A stretch of 64,000 nt of DNA from Euhalothece natronophila Z-M001 (GTDB taxonomy: Bacteria > Cyanobacteriota > Cyanobacteriia > Cyanobacteriales > Rubidibacteraceae), in NCBI RefSeq assembly GCF_007904085.1, contig NZ_CP042326.1, forward strand, positions 2,914,001-2,978,000, read 5' to 3'. The translations under genes and the position numbers were made by a program. The first letter of the stretch is position 1. Every line of letters begins with the position of its first letter. Positions 1-54,914 of this stretch are shown one piece after another. The notes below the pieces were generated by a model. The model worked only from the letters and a program-made list of their open reading frames with translations. It had not been told where the DNA came from and searched no databases.

Positions 1-1455
1 CGCAATGATACCGAATTGGGACGAGGAAAATTTCGTCTCAAAGGAGATGTATTAGAAATTGTTCCTGCTTATGAAGATCGCATTGTTCGCGTAGAATTTT
101 TTGGCGATGAAATTGATAGTTTACGTTATGTTGATCCAACAACGGGAGAAGTTTTACAAAGTTTAGGGGGACTGAATATTTATCCGGCCCGTCACTTTGT
201 TACTCCTGATGATCAATTAGAAATTGCCTGTCAAAATATAGAAGCAGAATTAAAGCAACGATTAGAAGAACTGGAAACAGAAGGAAAACTATTAGAAGCA
301 CAACGATTAGAACAAAGAACCAAATATGATTTAGAATTACTGAGAGAAGTGGGATATTGTAACGGAGTTGAAAACTACTCCCGTCATTTAGCAGGAAGAG
401 AAGCAGGTGATCCCCCAGAGTGTTTAGTGGATTATTTTCCTGATGATTGGTTATTAGTTGTTGATGAATCTCATGTAACCGTTCCCCAGTTAAGAGGAAT
501 GTATAATGGCGATCAATCGCGGAAAAAAGTTTTAGTTGATCATGGTTTTCGGCTTCCCAGTGCAGCCGATAACCGTCCTTTGAAAGCAGAAGAATTTTGG
601 CAAAAGGTGAATCAATGTATTTTTGTTTCAGCAACTCCTGGGGATTGGGAAATGGAGGAATCAAATGGCAATATTATAGAACAAGTGATTCGTCCAACTG
701 GAGTTTTAGATCCAAAAGTGTTTGTACGTCCCACAGAAGGACAAATTGATGATTTATTAGGAGAAATTCAGCAACGGGCGGAAAAAGAAGAGCGAGTTTT
801 AGTAACTACTTTAACTAAAAAAATGGCTGAAGATTTAACTGAATATTGCCAAGAAAGAGAAATAAGAGTGCGCTACTTACACTCAGAAATTCATTCCATT
901 GAACGTATAGAGATATTACAAGATTTAAGAAAAGGAACGTTTGATGTTTTAATTGGTGTTAATCTTTTAAGAGAAGGGTTAGACTTGCCCGAAGTGTCTT
1001 TAGTTGCCATTTTAGATGCAGATAAAGAAGGCTTTTTACGATCAGAACGGTCTTTAATTCAAACCATGGGACGAGCGGCGCGTCATGTGGATGGACAGGT
1101 AATTTTGTATGCTGATACCTTAACTGAGAGCATGGAAAGAGCCATTCAGGAAACAGAAAGACGGCGCAAGATTCAAATGGAGTATAATGAGCAAAATGGA
1201 ATTACCCCACAATCGATTGTAAAAGCCCAAAGTAATTCTATCTTATCCTTTTTGGATATTTCTCGCCGTTTGAATGCCCAACAGCTAGAAATGGTCTATG
1301 AGCAAGCGGATGATCTACCATTGGATAAAATTCCGCAATTAGTCGAACAATTGGAAGCCGAGATGAAAGAAGCAGCCCAGAATCTAGAGTTTGAAAAAGC
1401 AGCTAATTTGCGCGATCGCGTTAAGAAATTAAGGGAGAAACTTTTAAGAAAGTAA
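1..1455 (+). CDS. uvrB: UvrB, excinuclease ABC subunit B (5' end outside window)
   Basis: UvrB is the damage-verifying helicase-like subunit of UvrABC nucleotide excision repair. The reading frame is open from base 1 (R-N-D-T-E-L-G-R-G), so the gene begins upstream and roughly the last 485 of about 665 residues are present. Helicase motifs are visible: [39 protein letters not shown] and QTMGRAARH. The C-terminal UVR motif ([16 protein letters not shown]) that contacts UvrC is intact just before the stop. A TTG at 16 could be mistaken for a start but is internal. No frameshift is seen. The following gene is on the same strand, about 190 nt downstream. Confidence 0.97.
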
Positions 1456-52900: not shown

Positions 52901-53033
52901 AGCCATGAACGGTTGGCTTGGAGTGATCTTCACGAATGTTATAAATCCCCGCTTCGACTTGTTCTAAAAGATCTGGGGCTTCGTTACGGAAGAGTTCGTA
53001 ACTTTGTTGGCGGATTTCTTCGTCGGTAGTCAT
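49944..53033 (-). CDS. CheA-type hybrid histidine kinase with CheW and receiver domains
   Basis: 1029 residues. Hpt domain with RATHTLKGAAANVGQ (phospho-His50), a long acidic linker, a CheA dimerisation domain (about 370-465), a HATPase with N-box HLVRNAFDHGIESPE, VKDDGRGLNVEQI and GRGIGLDVVYSQ (about 480-640), a CheW-like domain (about 645-830) and a C-terminal receiver DLIVCDLEMPRMNGLEFI (about 910-1025). This is the architecture of PixL/PilL-type kinases in cyanobacterial phototaxis or pilus systems. No receptor or response regulator gene is near, so the system's input is unknown. Confidence 0.92.
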   Translation of the reverse strand: MTTDEEIRQQSYELFRNEAPDLLEQVEAGIYNIREDHSKPTVHGLMRATHTLKGAAANVGQDTIKKIAHQLEDVFGALLSPNAIFDNELETLLLDIYECLRVAYNNEIEGDNSSDEQNLERAEQIFSKLKEKLGDCFDEEPAIPSSSELGFDMTQSVFQVGVKQRLEQIEAVLEETSDPETIVEAVKPQMDVFVGLAESLSLEGFKAIAQTALTALEENPQAAGDIAQEVVNNISEARDAVLNGDRDRGGEPSEILKAFTESINASTASQVEFSDESFSLEDTFGNWQTEPETDPFVTYPLEQEEETEIITNASQKSEPENPPSAEKTEIISQQEATKLKASQDPELESAQFHQQQTPTPRTGVSIRVDLEQVENLNHLVGELSINQNLLSLRDEQYQNALQKLGGWLSQHRRTLFQLRDKLPAEYANSDFAQFLYASLEENSQLEQGLDDVNHIARANATSVEREQRLSRQVRDSLEAVRMLPIEKVLNRFPPMVKKLSESYNKSVELKLSGVQVLVDKAITENLYDALLHLVRNAFDHGIESPEQRKQQGKPIQGRIWIYAYNQGNRTIVEVKDDGRGLNVEQICQRAQEKNLLTPAQVKEIRNSPHPEDRLLRVLCEPGFSTVGKATDLSGRGIGLDVVYSQMQKINGSVTVESEIGVGTTFYLQIRGALMNARLLVCQAGQGVYSFIADEVEQVLIPEEEKIKWLGSQKVLQWRSRKEDDPISVPIHPLTQLLNYPPNANFLLQAQPKSETEIQETTTLLTASEGVAPILLIRTPEGLVGLEIDTVIEEQELVLKPISTTIQPPIYAYGCTILADGRLSLVIDGAALIRHNKSRVGISPQLNIDSSSQKSFASQTNKILPHQRLKEDYTNPYSIHQEGEETSIHDEAGATASEQNNRPIDTEKYRTLLVVDDSITERQTLSMIMQKAGHHVIQAKDGQEALEQLQQGAKVDLIVCDLEMPRMNGLEFIGMTRQNPNFAQIPVIVLTSRTRDKYQRIAMELGASDYLTKPYLDQDLLGTVGKNLKP

Positions 53034-53367
53034 TGCTTTTGTATTTTTAATTGAGCAGAAATCTCACGTTTTCAAGGGCAGTAAGAGAATGAGCAACACA
53101 CCCAAGTTATAGGTGATTGGGTAAAGGTTAGTTTTCCCAATGCTAATCACAAGCTACTGATGCCAAGTATAGAGTAGCACATTTAGCAGGAAAGAGGTTT
53201 CTCATTTGGCAAGAGGCTCAATTTTTTGTTTAGTGCAAAATATCAAGTTTTATATCTTATCTAAATCACAAATTTCGTTGCAAAACGTAAAAAAATCGCT
53301 AAAAGTAGAGAATTTAATGCTTTTAACAATGCACAATAGGCAATCAGAGTTTAGAATAATGCAGTGA

Positions 53368-53426
53368 AACATAGAACAGATCAGTATCATAGCTGATTAG
53401 GGGCTAGTTACCTAGCTCTCTATGTT
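53368..53426 (+). promoter_or_regulatory. three-way-junction structured leader upstream of hupB
   Basis: AACATAGA (53368-53375) pairs with TCTATGTT (53419-53426), a perfect 8-bp stem. Inside are two hairpins: ATCAG-TATCATAG-CTGAT and GGGCTAG-TTAC-CTAGCTC (7 bp, one G-T). A further hairpin CTTGC-TCAGC-GCAAG follows at about 53445. The structure starts about 140 nt before the hupB ATG. The rest of the 473-nt gap (53034-53506) shows no open frame. Confidence 0.5.
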
Positions 53427-53506
53427 AGTAAATGCAAAGAAAACTTGCTCAGCGCAAGCAATCTGGCGTTATTGTAGAGAAACACTCGTAAATTAGGAGA
53501 GTAAGA

Positions 53507-53794
53507 ATGAATAAAGGAGATTTAGTTGATCAAATTGCCGATCGGGCAACTGTTACCAAAAAACAAGCCGATGCTGTTTTAACAGCGGCGCTTGAAACTA
53601 TCATGGATAGCGTATCTAAAGGGGAAAAAGTCACCTTAGTTGGCTTTGGTTCTTTTGAAAAGCGGGAACGGAAAGCACGGGAAGGACGAAATCCGAAAAC
53701 TGGAGATAAAATGGAGATTCCTGCTACTTCAGTTCCGGCTTTTTCTGCAGGGAAACTGTTTAAGGAACGAGTAGCCCCTGAAAATAATAAGTAA
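53507..53794 (+). CDS. hupB: HU-family DNA-binding protein
   Basis: 95 residues: MNKGDLVDQIADRATVTKKQ start, VTLVGFGSFEKRERKAREGR and NPKTGDKMEIPATSVPAFSA, the DNA-binding β-arm with the conserved proline, and a short C-terminal tail. HU bends and compacts DNA in the nucleoid. GGAG before the ATG is the ribosome binding site. It is followed by the cobD-like gene 19 nt later and preceded by a structured leader. Confidence 0.96.
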   Translation: MNKGDLVDQIADRATVTKKQADAVLTAALETIMDSVSKGEKVTLVGFGSFEKRERKAREGRNPKTGDKMEIPATSVPAFSAGKLFKERVAPENNK

Positions 53795-53813
53795 CTAAGG
53801 GACATCAAACTTA

Positions 53814-54914
53814 ATGACACGACCAATACACGGAGGGAACTTAAATTGGGCTGCCCAGTTAGCTGGGTGTTCTCCCTCTGTGATATTGGATTTTTCTGCA
53901 AGTATTAACCCCCTTGGTCCTCCTGAAAGTGCGCTGAAAGCGATACAGGGGGGGCTAAGTTCCCTCAAGCATTATCCTGATCCCAATTACTCCCAGCTGC
54001 GGGAAGCTCTTGGCAAATGGCATAATCTTGACTCCAATTTAATTATACCTGGAAATGGGGCAGCAGAATTACTTACTTGGGCAGGACGAGAATTGGCAAC
54101 CTTGGATGCGGTTTATTTATTGACTCCTGGCTTTCGGGACTATACACGGGCTTTAGAGGCATTTGGGGCAAAAATAACCCCTTGTCCACTTAATGTGGCG
54201 AGAATGGCTCAAAAAACAGCAGAGCGTGAAGATTTAATTTTAGATGTTCCCTCCAGTGAAAACTGTGGTTTGCTTTTAAATAATCCCCATAACCCCACCG
54301 GTCAATTGTTCTCTCGTCGCTCAATTTTGCCCTATTTAGAGCAGTTTGCCTTGGTGGTAATAGATGAAGCCTTTATGGACTTTTTGCCCCCAGAAGAGCA
54401 AGAAAGTCTAATCAGAGAGGTAGAAAATTATCCGAATTTAGTGGTGCTGCGATCGCTGACCAAATTTTACTCCTTACCAGGGCTAAGAATCGGCTATGCC
54501 GTTGCTCATCCTGATCGCCTTAAACAATGGCAAAAATGGCGTGATCCGTGGGCTGTGAATAGTTTAGCTAGTGAGGCAGCAATGGCAGTATTAGAAGACA
54601 CTACCTTTCAAAAGCAAACTTGGGGCTGGTTAAAAAGAGCGCGATCGCGCTTCTATCATGATTTAGCAAGTATTTCTGGTTTATCCCCCCTTCCTGGGGC
54701 TGCTAACTTTTTCCTCATTGCAACCGATTTTTCTGCTACCGAGTTACAAGCCCAACTTCTCCAAGAATTTCAAATTTTAATTCGCGACTGTCTTAGTTTT
54801 CCTGAACTTGGCGACCATTATTTTCGAGTTGCCATCCGTCAACAAGAAGATAACCAAAAACTAACTCAAGCCATAAAAAATACGCCAATTCTCAAGGAAA
54901 AGAACTCAAATTAG
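53814..54914 (+). CDS. cobD: L-threonine-O-3-phosphate decarboxylase-like aminotransferase (CobD/CobC)
   Basis: 366 residues, fold-I PLP enzyme. The opening MTRPIHGGNLNWAAQLAG and FSASINPLGPPESALKAI are typical of CobD (the histidinol-phosphate aminotransferase branch that makes the aminopropanol arm of cobalamin). NNPHNPTGQLFSRR, VVIDEAFMDFLP and RSLTKFYSLPGLRIGYAVAH (PLP Lys) are complete. The gene sits directly after hupB. The alternative, a HisC-like transaminase, is less likely given the N-terminal motif. Confidence 0.85.
   Translation: MTRPIHGGNLNWAAQLAGCSPSVILDFSASINPLGPPESALKAIQGGLSSLKHYPDPNYSQLREALGKWHNLDSNLIIPGNGAAELLTWAGRELATLDAVYLLTPGFRDYTRALEAFGAKITPCPLNVARMAQKTAEREDLILDVPSSENCGLLLNNPHNPTGQLFSRRSILPYLEQFALVVIDEAFMDFLPPEEQESLIREVENYPNLVVLRSLTKFYSLPGLRIGYAVAHPDRLKQWQKWRDPWAVNSLASEAAMAVLEDTTFQKQTWGWLKRARSRFYHDLASISGLSPLPGAANFFLIATDFSATELQAQLLQEFQILIRDCLSFPELGDHYFRVAIRQQEDNQKLTQAIKNTPILKEKNSN

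Follow-up and report, generated by a model that had tools for sequence, protein, structure and literature searches.

The mRNA of the nucleoid protein HU seems, in many cyanobacteria, to begin next to an unusually conserved promoter with a folded stretch, the closing stem of which is maintained by compensatory changes in its two arms. What has been preserved is base pairing between the 5' end and a segment about 55 nt further on, not one sequence or inner shape. The structured stretch of the hup leader is probably functional, and its most likely role, tentatively, is that of a 5'-terminal domain that protects the HU mRNA, a proposal for which we infer both the transcription start and the stabilising role.

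The hup leader of Euhalothece natronophila Z-M001

Among the proteins of the nucleoid, HU is a major one. In the window, by which we mean the whole stretch of 64,000 nt analysed here and to which all positions refer, the hup gene for a protein of 95 aa occupies positions 53507-53794 of the + strand (PF00216, E 7.4e-33) and is preceded by a Shine-Dalgarno-like AGGAG (53495-53499) in a region that is predicted to be open in relatives. Among the matches returned, the nearest relatives of this HU came from a Halothece MAG (95% identity) and another cyanobacterial MAG (92%). A gap of 473 nt (53034-53506) separates hup from the start codon (53033) of a kinase gene on the opposite strand, whose product combines Hpt, HATPase, CheW and receiver domains; downstream of hup follows a class I/II aminotransferase gene. 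One Nostocaceae genome (G457) gave 14 HU-like matches, several of which are 92-aa frames ending in TAG, while most of its relatives have one HU-like match each.

The initial annotation had drawn an RNA with a perfect 8-bp closing stem, two inner hairpins and a third hairpin further downstream in this gap, and we recovered all of these elements in place. In the minimum free energy (MFE) structure, P1 (AACAUAGA/UCUAUGUU) joins 53368-53375 to 53419-53426 (+5..+12 and +56..+63 relative to the predicted start) by 8 perfect base pairs. It encloses P2 (53379-53385/53392-53398), which has 7 pairs instead of the 5 drawn before, and P3 (53401-53407/53412-53418), with 7 pairs including one G-U; the third hairpin, CUUGC-UCAGC-GCAAG, is formed by 53444-53448 and 53454-53458. 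Folding of 53362-53470 with RNAfold yielded an MFE of -33.5 kcal/mol compared to -22.73 +/- 3.26 kcal/mol for 200 shuffles, none of which was as stable (z -3.30), indicating a stability above chance for this composition. The earlier impression that no known riboswitch is present was borne out by Rfam 15, which, riboswitches included, gave no match at gathering score in the window and 20 related loci, and a known riboswitch or other Rfam element was rejected on this ground. Four Rfam matches below threshold lie within 53000-53900, all of them outside the fold. A search of 53034-53540 for terminator-like sites returned a single one, at 53443-53459 of the minus strand, so that we discarded a terminator or attenuator. 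The suggestion that the structure might be a separate small RNA was likewise abandoned, because the + strand of this interval contains no terminator-like site and the best 30 loci of the sequence model described below all lie beside HU.

A hup-specific promoter block

The fold is preceded by a conserved block with the -10 element TAGAAT at 53352-53357, of which AGAAT shows no variation in an alignment of 28 diverse sequences. The upstream part of the block (53302-53345), delimited in the same alignment, has the consensus AAATCCATATAAATTAAAGGTTTCAnCGATCCATAT in relatives and is degenerate in E. natronophila; no clear -35 element was seen in the block. With a query of 181 bp, 15 of 60 relatives were matched, outside the genus only by query bases 1-48, and a block of the type AAATCCATATAAATTAAAGGTTTCAnCGATCCATAT...cTTAGAATAATGCAGTGAAAC recurs among the 130 regions upstream of hup collected from the order. 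These regions and further HU loci made up a set of 240 upstream regions, in which some genomes are represented twice. A 25-base core was present at 18/25 or better in 216 of the 240 regions, in one of the 240 reversed and in none of the 240 reverse-complemented sequences; we quote this cut-off because 16/25 still matches 20/240 reversed sequences and 82/240 reverse complements. The 17 regions without a core match at 16/25 were dropped, leaving 223 leaders.

A sequence-only model of the promoter block (R1) found a single strong site in the E. natronophila genome, located at hup (53302-53397, E 5.9e-16; next best 0.05; 150 of 1228 first-look candidates scored). Among 194 genomes sampled across the phylum, 79 contained a match at E <= 0.01. 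Of these, 58 are among the 63 listed members of the order, 10 belong to the same class but not to the order, and 11 are more distant, with weak matches (0.003-0.0096) that are probably due to chance. All of the best 30 loci (30/30) lie beside HU. An exact-pattern search matched 34 of 291 genomes, with HU present in 27 of the 30 loci fetched. A general promoter scan of the gap was not above chance (one promoter found, 1.4 expected), so the promoter assignment rests on conservation.

By the usual spacing from the -10 element, transcription is predicted to start near 53364 (about +/-2) at the G of CA-GTG, four bases before P1, and the RNA would begin with GUGA followed by P1. A start downstream of 53430 had been named in the initial annotation as an argument against its own proposal; the conserved -10 element puts the likely start upstream of the fold instead. 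The average folding propensity of 65 non-redundant leaders in 75-nt windows changes around the same position: the mean z lies between -0.33 and +0.03 at -90..-40, falls to -0.59 at -30, -1.58 at -10 and -1.67 at 0 (n=63), and stays at -1.0 to -1.6 at +10..+80, with mildly negative values (-0.68 to -0.85) also at -150..-110.

Some further features of the block were noted. The conserved box of about 40 bp upstream of the -10 element (53302-53345, in hup promoters throughout the order) contains a direct repeat, ATCCATAT ... ATCCATAT, with copies 26 bp apart in the consensus as read by eye, and we recognised no known factor site in it. The conserved ATGCAGTGA after the -10 element (53360-53368 and relatives) can be read as a two-codon frame, ATG-CAG-TGA, which is probably coincidental because it spans the predicted start and is replaced by ATTCATTGA in Nostocaceae. 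TTTCA-like boxes flank the start at fixed positions, -43 and +24 and thus about 66 bp apart, with an inverted TGAAA at +2 between them.

These boxes raise the question whether the sequence around +1 is conserved mainly as an operator or promoter part bound by a putative factor at the DNA level. With loose patterns, the box at -43 was found in 165 and the box at +24 or +23 in 188 of 216 leaders, most aligned leader rows are free of indels from -60 to +32, and conservation upstream of the start is strong. Moreover, the hup transcript was reported to drop strongly after knock-down of gyrase in Synechocystis (cited part of PMC9825172), an effect that would most simply be exerted at the promoter. 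However, control at the DNA level leaves unexplained why the variable arms at +1..16 and +52..68 coevolve and why the signal is larger on the sense strand (see below), and we consider it rather unlikely as the main reason for the conservation. Possibly, the TTTCA-like boxes form a DNA operator alongside the RNA structure, and both the upstream box and the TTTCA boxes require a DNA-level reason in addition to a stabilising function of the leader.

Coevolution of the closing stem

Selection on pairing was assessed by an alignment-free swap test on the hup leaders, in which the duplex energy of the first 16 nt of each leader with its own downstream stretch is compared to that with the stretch of every other leader. 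After exclusion of 17 leaders shorter than 90 nt, among them the 58-nt Roseofilum type, the remaining 206 of the 223 leaders were thinned to 93 with less than 75% identity. Where the leader is short, inspection by eye suggests that the 5' arm has its partner at a smaller distance (GAAACUC/GAGUUUC). For P1 (+1..+16 against +40..85), own partners reached -8.35 kcal/mol and swapped partners -6.43 kcal/mol, and none of 5000 permutations was as low; the control windows +19..40 (near, p 0.14) and +86..110 (far, p 0.46) showed no such difference. The P2 arm (+14..31 against +36..70) gave -10.44 versus -8.60 kcal/mol (0/5000; far control p 0.61). When the partner window was slid, Z was -3.2 at +28, -5.4 at +44, -8.3 at +52..68, -1.8 at +60 and 0.0 at +76, with the peak at the position where E. 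natronophila has the 3' arm of P1. When instead the anchor was slid, Z reached -8.4 at 0, and the 19 other anchors (-150 to +40) ranged from -3.6 to +2.5. The background of the test is thus wider than a standard normal distribution; the peak at anchor 0 lies about five background standard deviations out.

The signal persisted in a set with less than 60% identity (n=64; P1 Z -6.6 for +40..85 and -5.9 for +52..68, P2 -6.0, far control -0.0), in which the near control reached Z -2.2 (p 0.019), and without the genus of E. natronophila (n=88; P1 Z -7.7). It was larger on the sense than on the antisense strand (Z -9.0 versus -6.1 for P1 and -7.5 versus -4.8 for P2), a difference that is expected if G-U pairs contribute. 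In 64 of the 93 leaders, P1 reaches a duplex energy of -6 kcal/mol or lower, with arms as different as CUUCGAGGG/CUCUCGAAG, GAAACAUCGG/UCGAUGUUUC and AAUCCGAU/AUCGGAUU, and all four Watson-Crick pair types occur at +8, +10, +14 and +16 in a table that, being fitted to the duplex, is biased in favour of pairing. In a family with a diverged -10 element, inspection of seven leaders by eye revealed some P1-like pairs, e.g. GAGUUGAUG/CAUUAACUC and AACACUU/AAGUGUU. The pairing of P1 itself is thus under selection, and the compensatory change in relatives by which the initial annotation wanted its proposal to be judged is present in the closing stem as matching change across many families.

It is very improbable that AT-rich leaders merely fold into something by chance, with no structure being selected. 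The lack of conservation of the inner hairpins and the missing alignment-based consensus (see below) would fit such an explanation, but they are countered by the z of -3.3 in E. natronophila and by the swap tests with their null far controls.

Variation inside the domain

Projection of the E. natronophila structure on a MAFFT alignment of six leaders of the genus, this genome included, showed P1 paired in 43 of 48 cells and the third hairpin in 30 of 30, compared to 25 of 42 for P2 and 20 of 42 for P3. One pair of P1 was changed on both sides (A-U to C-G), and the third hairpin displayed only one-sided G-U changes. RNAalifold on the six leaders retained P1 and the third hairpin and dropped P2 and P3 (-9.2 kcal/mol). 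Three members (L048, L050 and L051) have mismatches in P1, and the z for pairing with the own partner was -2.2 in E. natronophila and L049, -1.0 in L047, 0.0 in L048 and +0.9 in L051. In single-sequence MFE structures of the first 100 nt, this P1 was drawn for E. natronophila only among the six, and L047 formed a similar stem with a shifted partner. Conservation within the genus does not extend to P2 and P3, so the three-way junction is a version of the domain peculiar to this genome: what stands of the proposed three-way-junction RNA before hup is a structured leader with a conserved closing stem, and the junction as a conserved object was rejected.

In 53 aligned Nostocaceae leaders, P1 was nearly invariant, with 383 of 424 cells paired (gaps counted as unpaired); its variation was mostly between G-C and G-U, and one sequence had changed on both sides. 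RNAalifold found no consensus in a MAFFT alignment of 33 mixed leaders (0.0 kcal/mol), in 48 Nostocaceae leaders (0.0) or in 19 Coleofasciculus-like leaders (0.0), and for 53 longer Nostocaceae leaders it reached -1.56 without drawing P1. Six close Gloeocapsopsis-like leaders yielded a P1/P2 consensus (-15.7).

Accessibility of the leader

Base-pair probabilities were calculated for the 93 leaders, each extended by 45 nt into the coding sequence, and compared to shuffles. On average, +1..+8 was slightly less paired than in shuffles, indicating that the unpaired 5' tail is longer in many species than the 4 nt between the predicted start and P1 in E. natronophila. Pairing was increased at +9..+32 (0.62-0.69 versus 0.54-0.57) and decreased in a loop at +33..+36 (0.35 versus 0.61). 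The ribosome site (-25..-11 relative to the start codon) was predicted to be more open than in shuffles (0.39-0.48 versus 0.57-0.58), and so was the start codon. Leader length varies from 101 to 383 nt among the 93 leaders and is 58 nt in some others, and the distance from P1 to the ribosome site varies. Together, the open ribosome site and its varying distance make a riboswitch or a switch that masks the Shine-Dalgarno sequence unlikely and suggest that the domain exerts its effect at the 5' end without involving the ribosome site. Masking was rejected for the predicted openness of the site, and a riboswitch with a conserved ligand core and a switch additionally because the inner shape is not kept and a + strand terminator is missing from 53034-53540.

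The loop at +33..36 and a conserved TTTCAGCGATTTT strand could also provide a docking site for a putative trans-acting small RNA or RNA-binding protein. The strand is conserved and the loop is predicted to be unpaired, yet the TTTCAGCGATTTT strand is altered in E. natronophila and its genus, and we regard docking as quite unlikely.

Discussion

The 5' stem-loop of the ompA mRNA of E. coli shields the 5' end from 5'-end-dependent RNases and leaves the ribosome site free. We would place the hup leader among the structured mRNA leaders, where it may work like such a capping stem. In this proposal, the stretch would be the 5' leader of the HU mRNA, transcribed from the conserved hup-specific promoter with a start near 53364, and P1 would hold the first ~65 nt together as a closed 5'-terminal domain, with the ribosome-binding region further down remaining open. 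The inside of the domain would consist of two hairpins in E. natronophila by happenstance, creating a three-way junction there. Capping in the manner of ompA would hide the 5' end from 5'-end-dependent RNases and could thereby give the abundant HU protein a long-lived mRNA with a free ribosome site. Both leaders have a stem sequence that is free to vary and a ribosome site left open, in hup by prediction, and the hup stem would likewise lie close to the 5' end if transcription starts where predicted. The hup domain is longer (~65 nt), varies inside and occurs at a single gene, whose promoter is conserved.

According to the cited part of PMC10989914, cyanobacteria possess RNase E and a 5'-end-sensitive RNase J, which fits a capping role. 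Close RppH homologues are absent from them according to the same article, which makes decay from the 5' end less certain in these bacteria. In Synechococcus 7002, the correlate of mRNA stability reported in the cited part of PMC7406221 is a 3' U-tract terminator. The absence of RppH homologues and the 3' correlate argue against a stabilising function, as do the P1 mismatches and own-partner z values of the deviating genus members, the weak pairing of +1..+8, the missing RNAalifold consensus in mixed and Nostocaceae leaders and the wide background of the swap test.

The most interesting rival explanation is a feedback by HU, which might bind its own leader at the stem or junction, alter translation or decay and so set its own level. 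HU reads nucleic-acid shape rather than sequence, which would fit a pairing that is kept without its sequence at an element specific to hup. Binding of HU to dsRNA and to the rpoS and dsrA RNAs has also been reported (cited parts of PMC6105893 and PMC5683647). However, the junction shape, which would be the best HU target, is not conserved, and we consider feedback unlikely, though worth keeping in mind. If true, it would explain why pairing, and not sequence or inner shape, is kept at one gene across several orders. The binding of HU to the structured leader of rpoS mRNA resembles this hypothetical interaction, but there another gene is regulated, and binding to its own leader is hypothetical here (PMC6105893, cited part).

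Other known systems share single features with the hup leader. The psaA motif (RF01752) and other 5' UTR motifs described for cyanobacteria in the cited part of PMC2864571 are cis-acting leader RNAs with hairpins as well, but psaA is another gene and the hup leader has no Rfam match. Three-way-junction riboswitches have the junction shape in common with the leader of E. natronophila, whereas the hup leader lacks a conserved core at the junction and its inner hairpins change within the genus. The words hup and histone are absent from the main text of two structured-RNA screens (PMC2662882, PMC2864571), and our literature search, which covered main texts, returned neither a cyanobacterial hup leader element nor a mapped hup start.

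Control of HU synthesis by the leader, as considered in the initial annotation, is plausible as a putative function. Beyond hup, the swap test can reveal structure in leaders in which consensus folding sees none, and the leader is possibly a part for stabilising foreign mRNAs. Anabaena HU was cited as essential for heterocyst differentiation (PMC3610870, cited part), and our literature search found no account of how the dose of HU is set in cyanobacteria. A promoter found only at hup, together with a coevolving 5' leader domain, provides a concrete and easily tested handle on HU dose.
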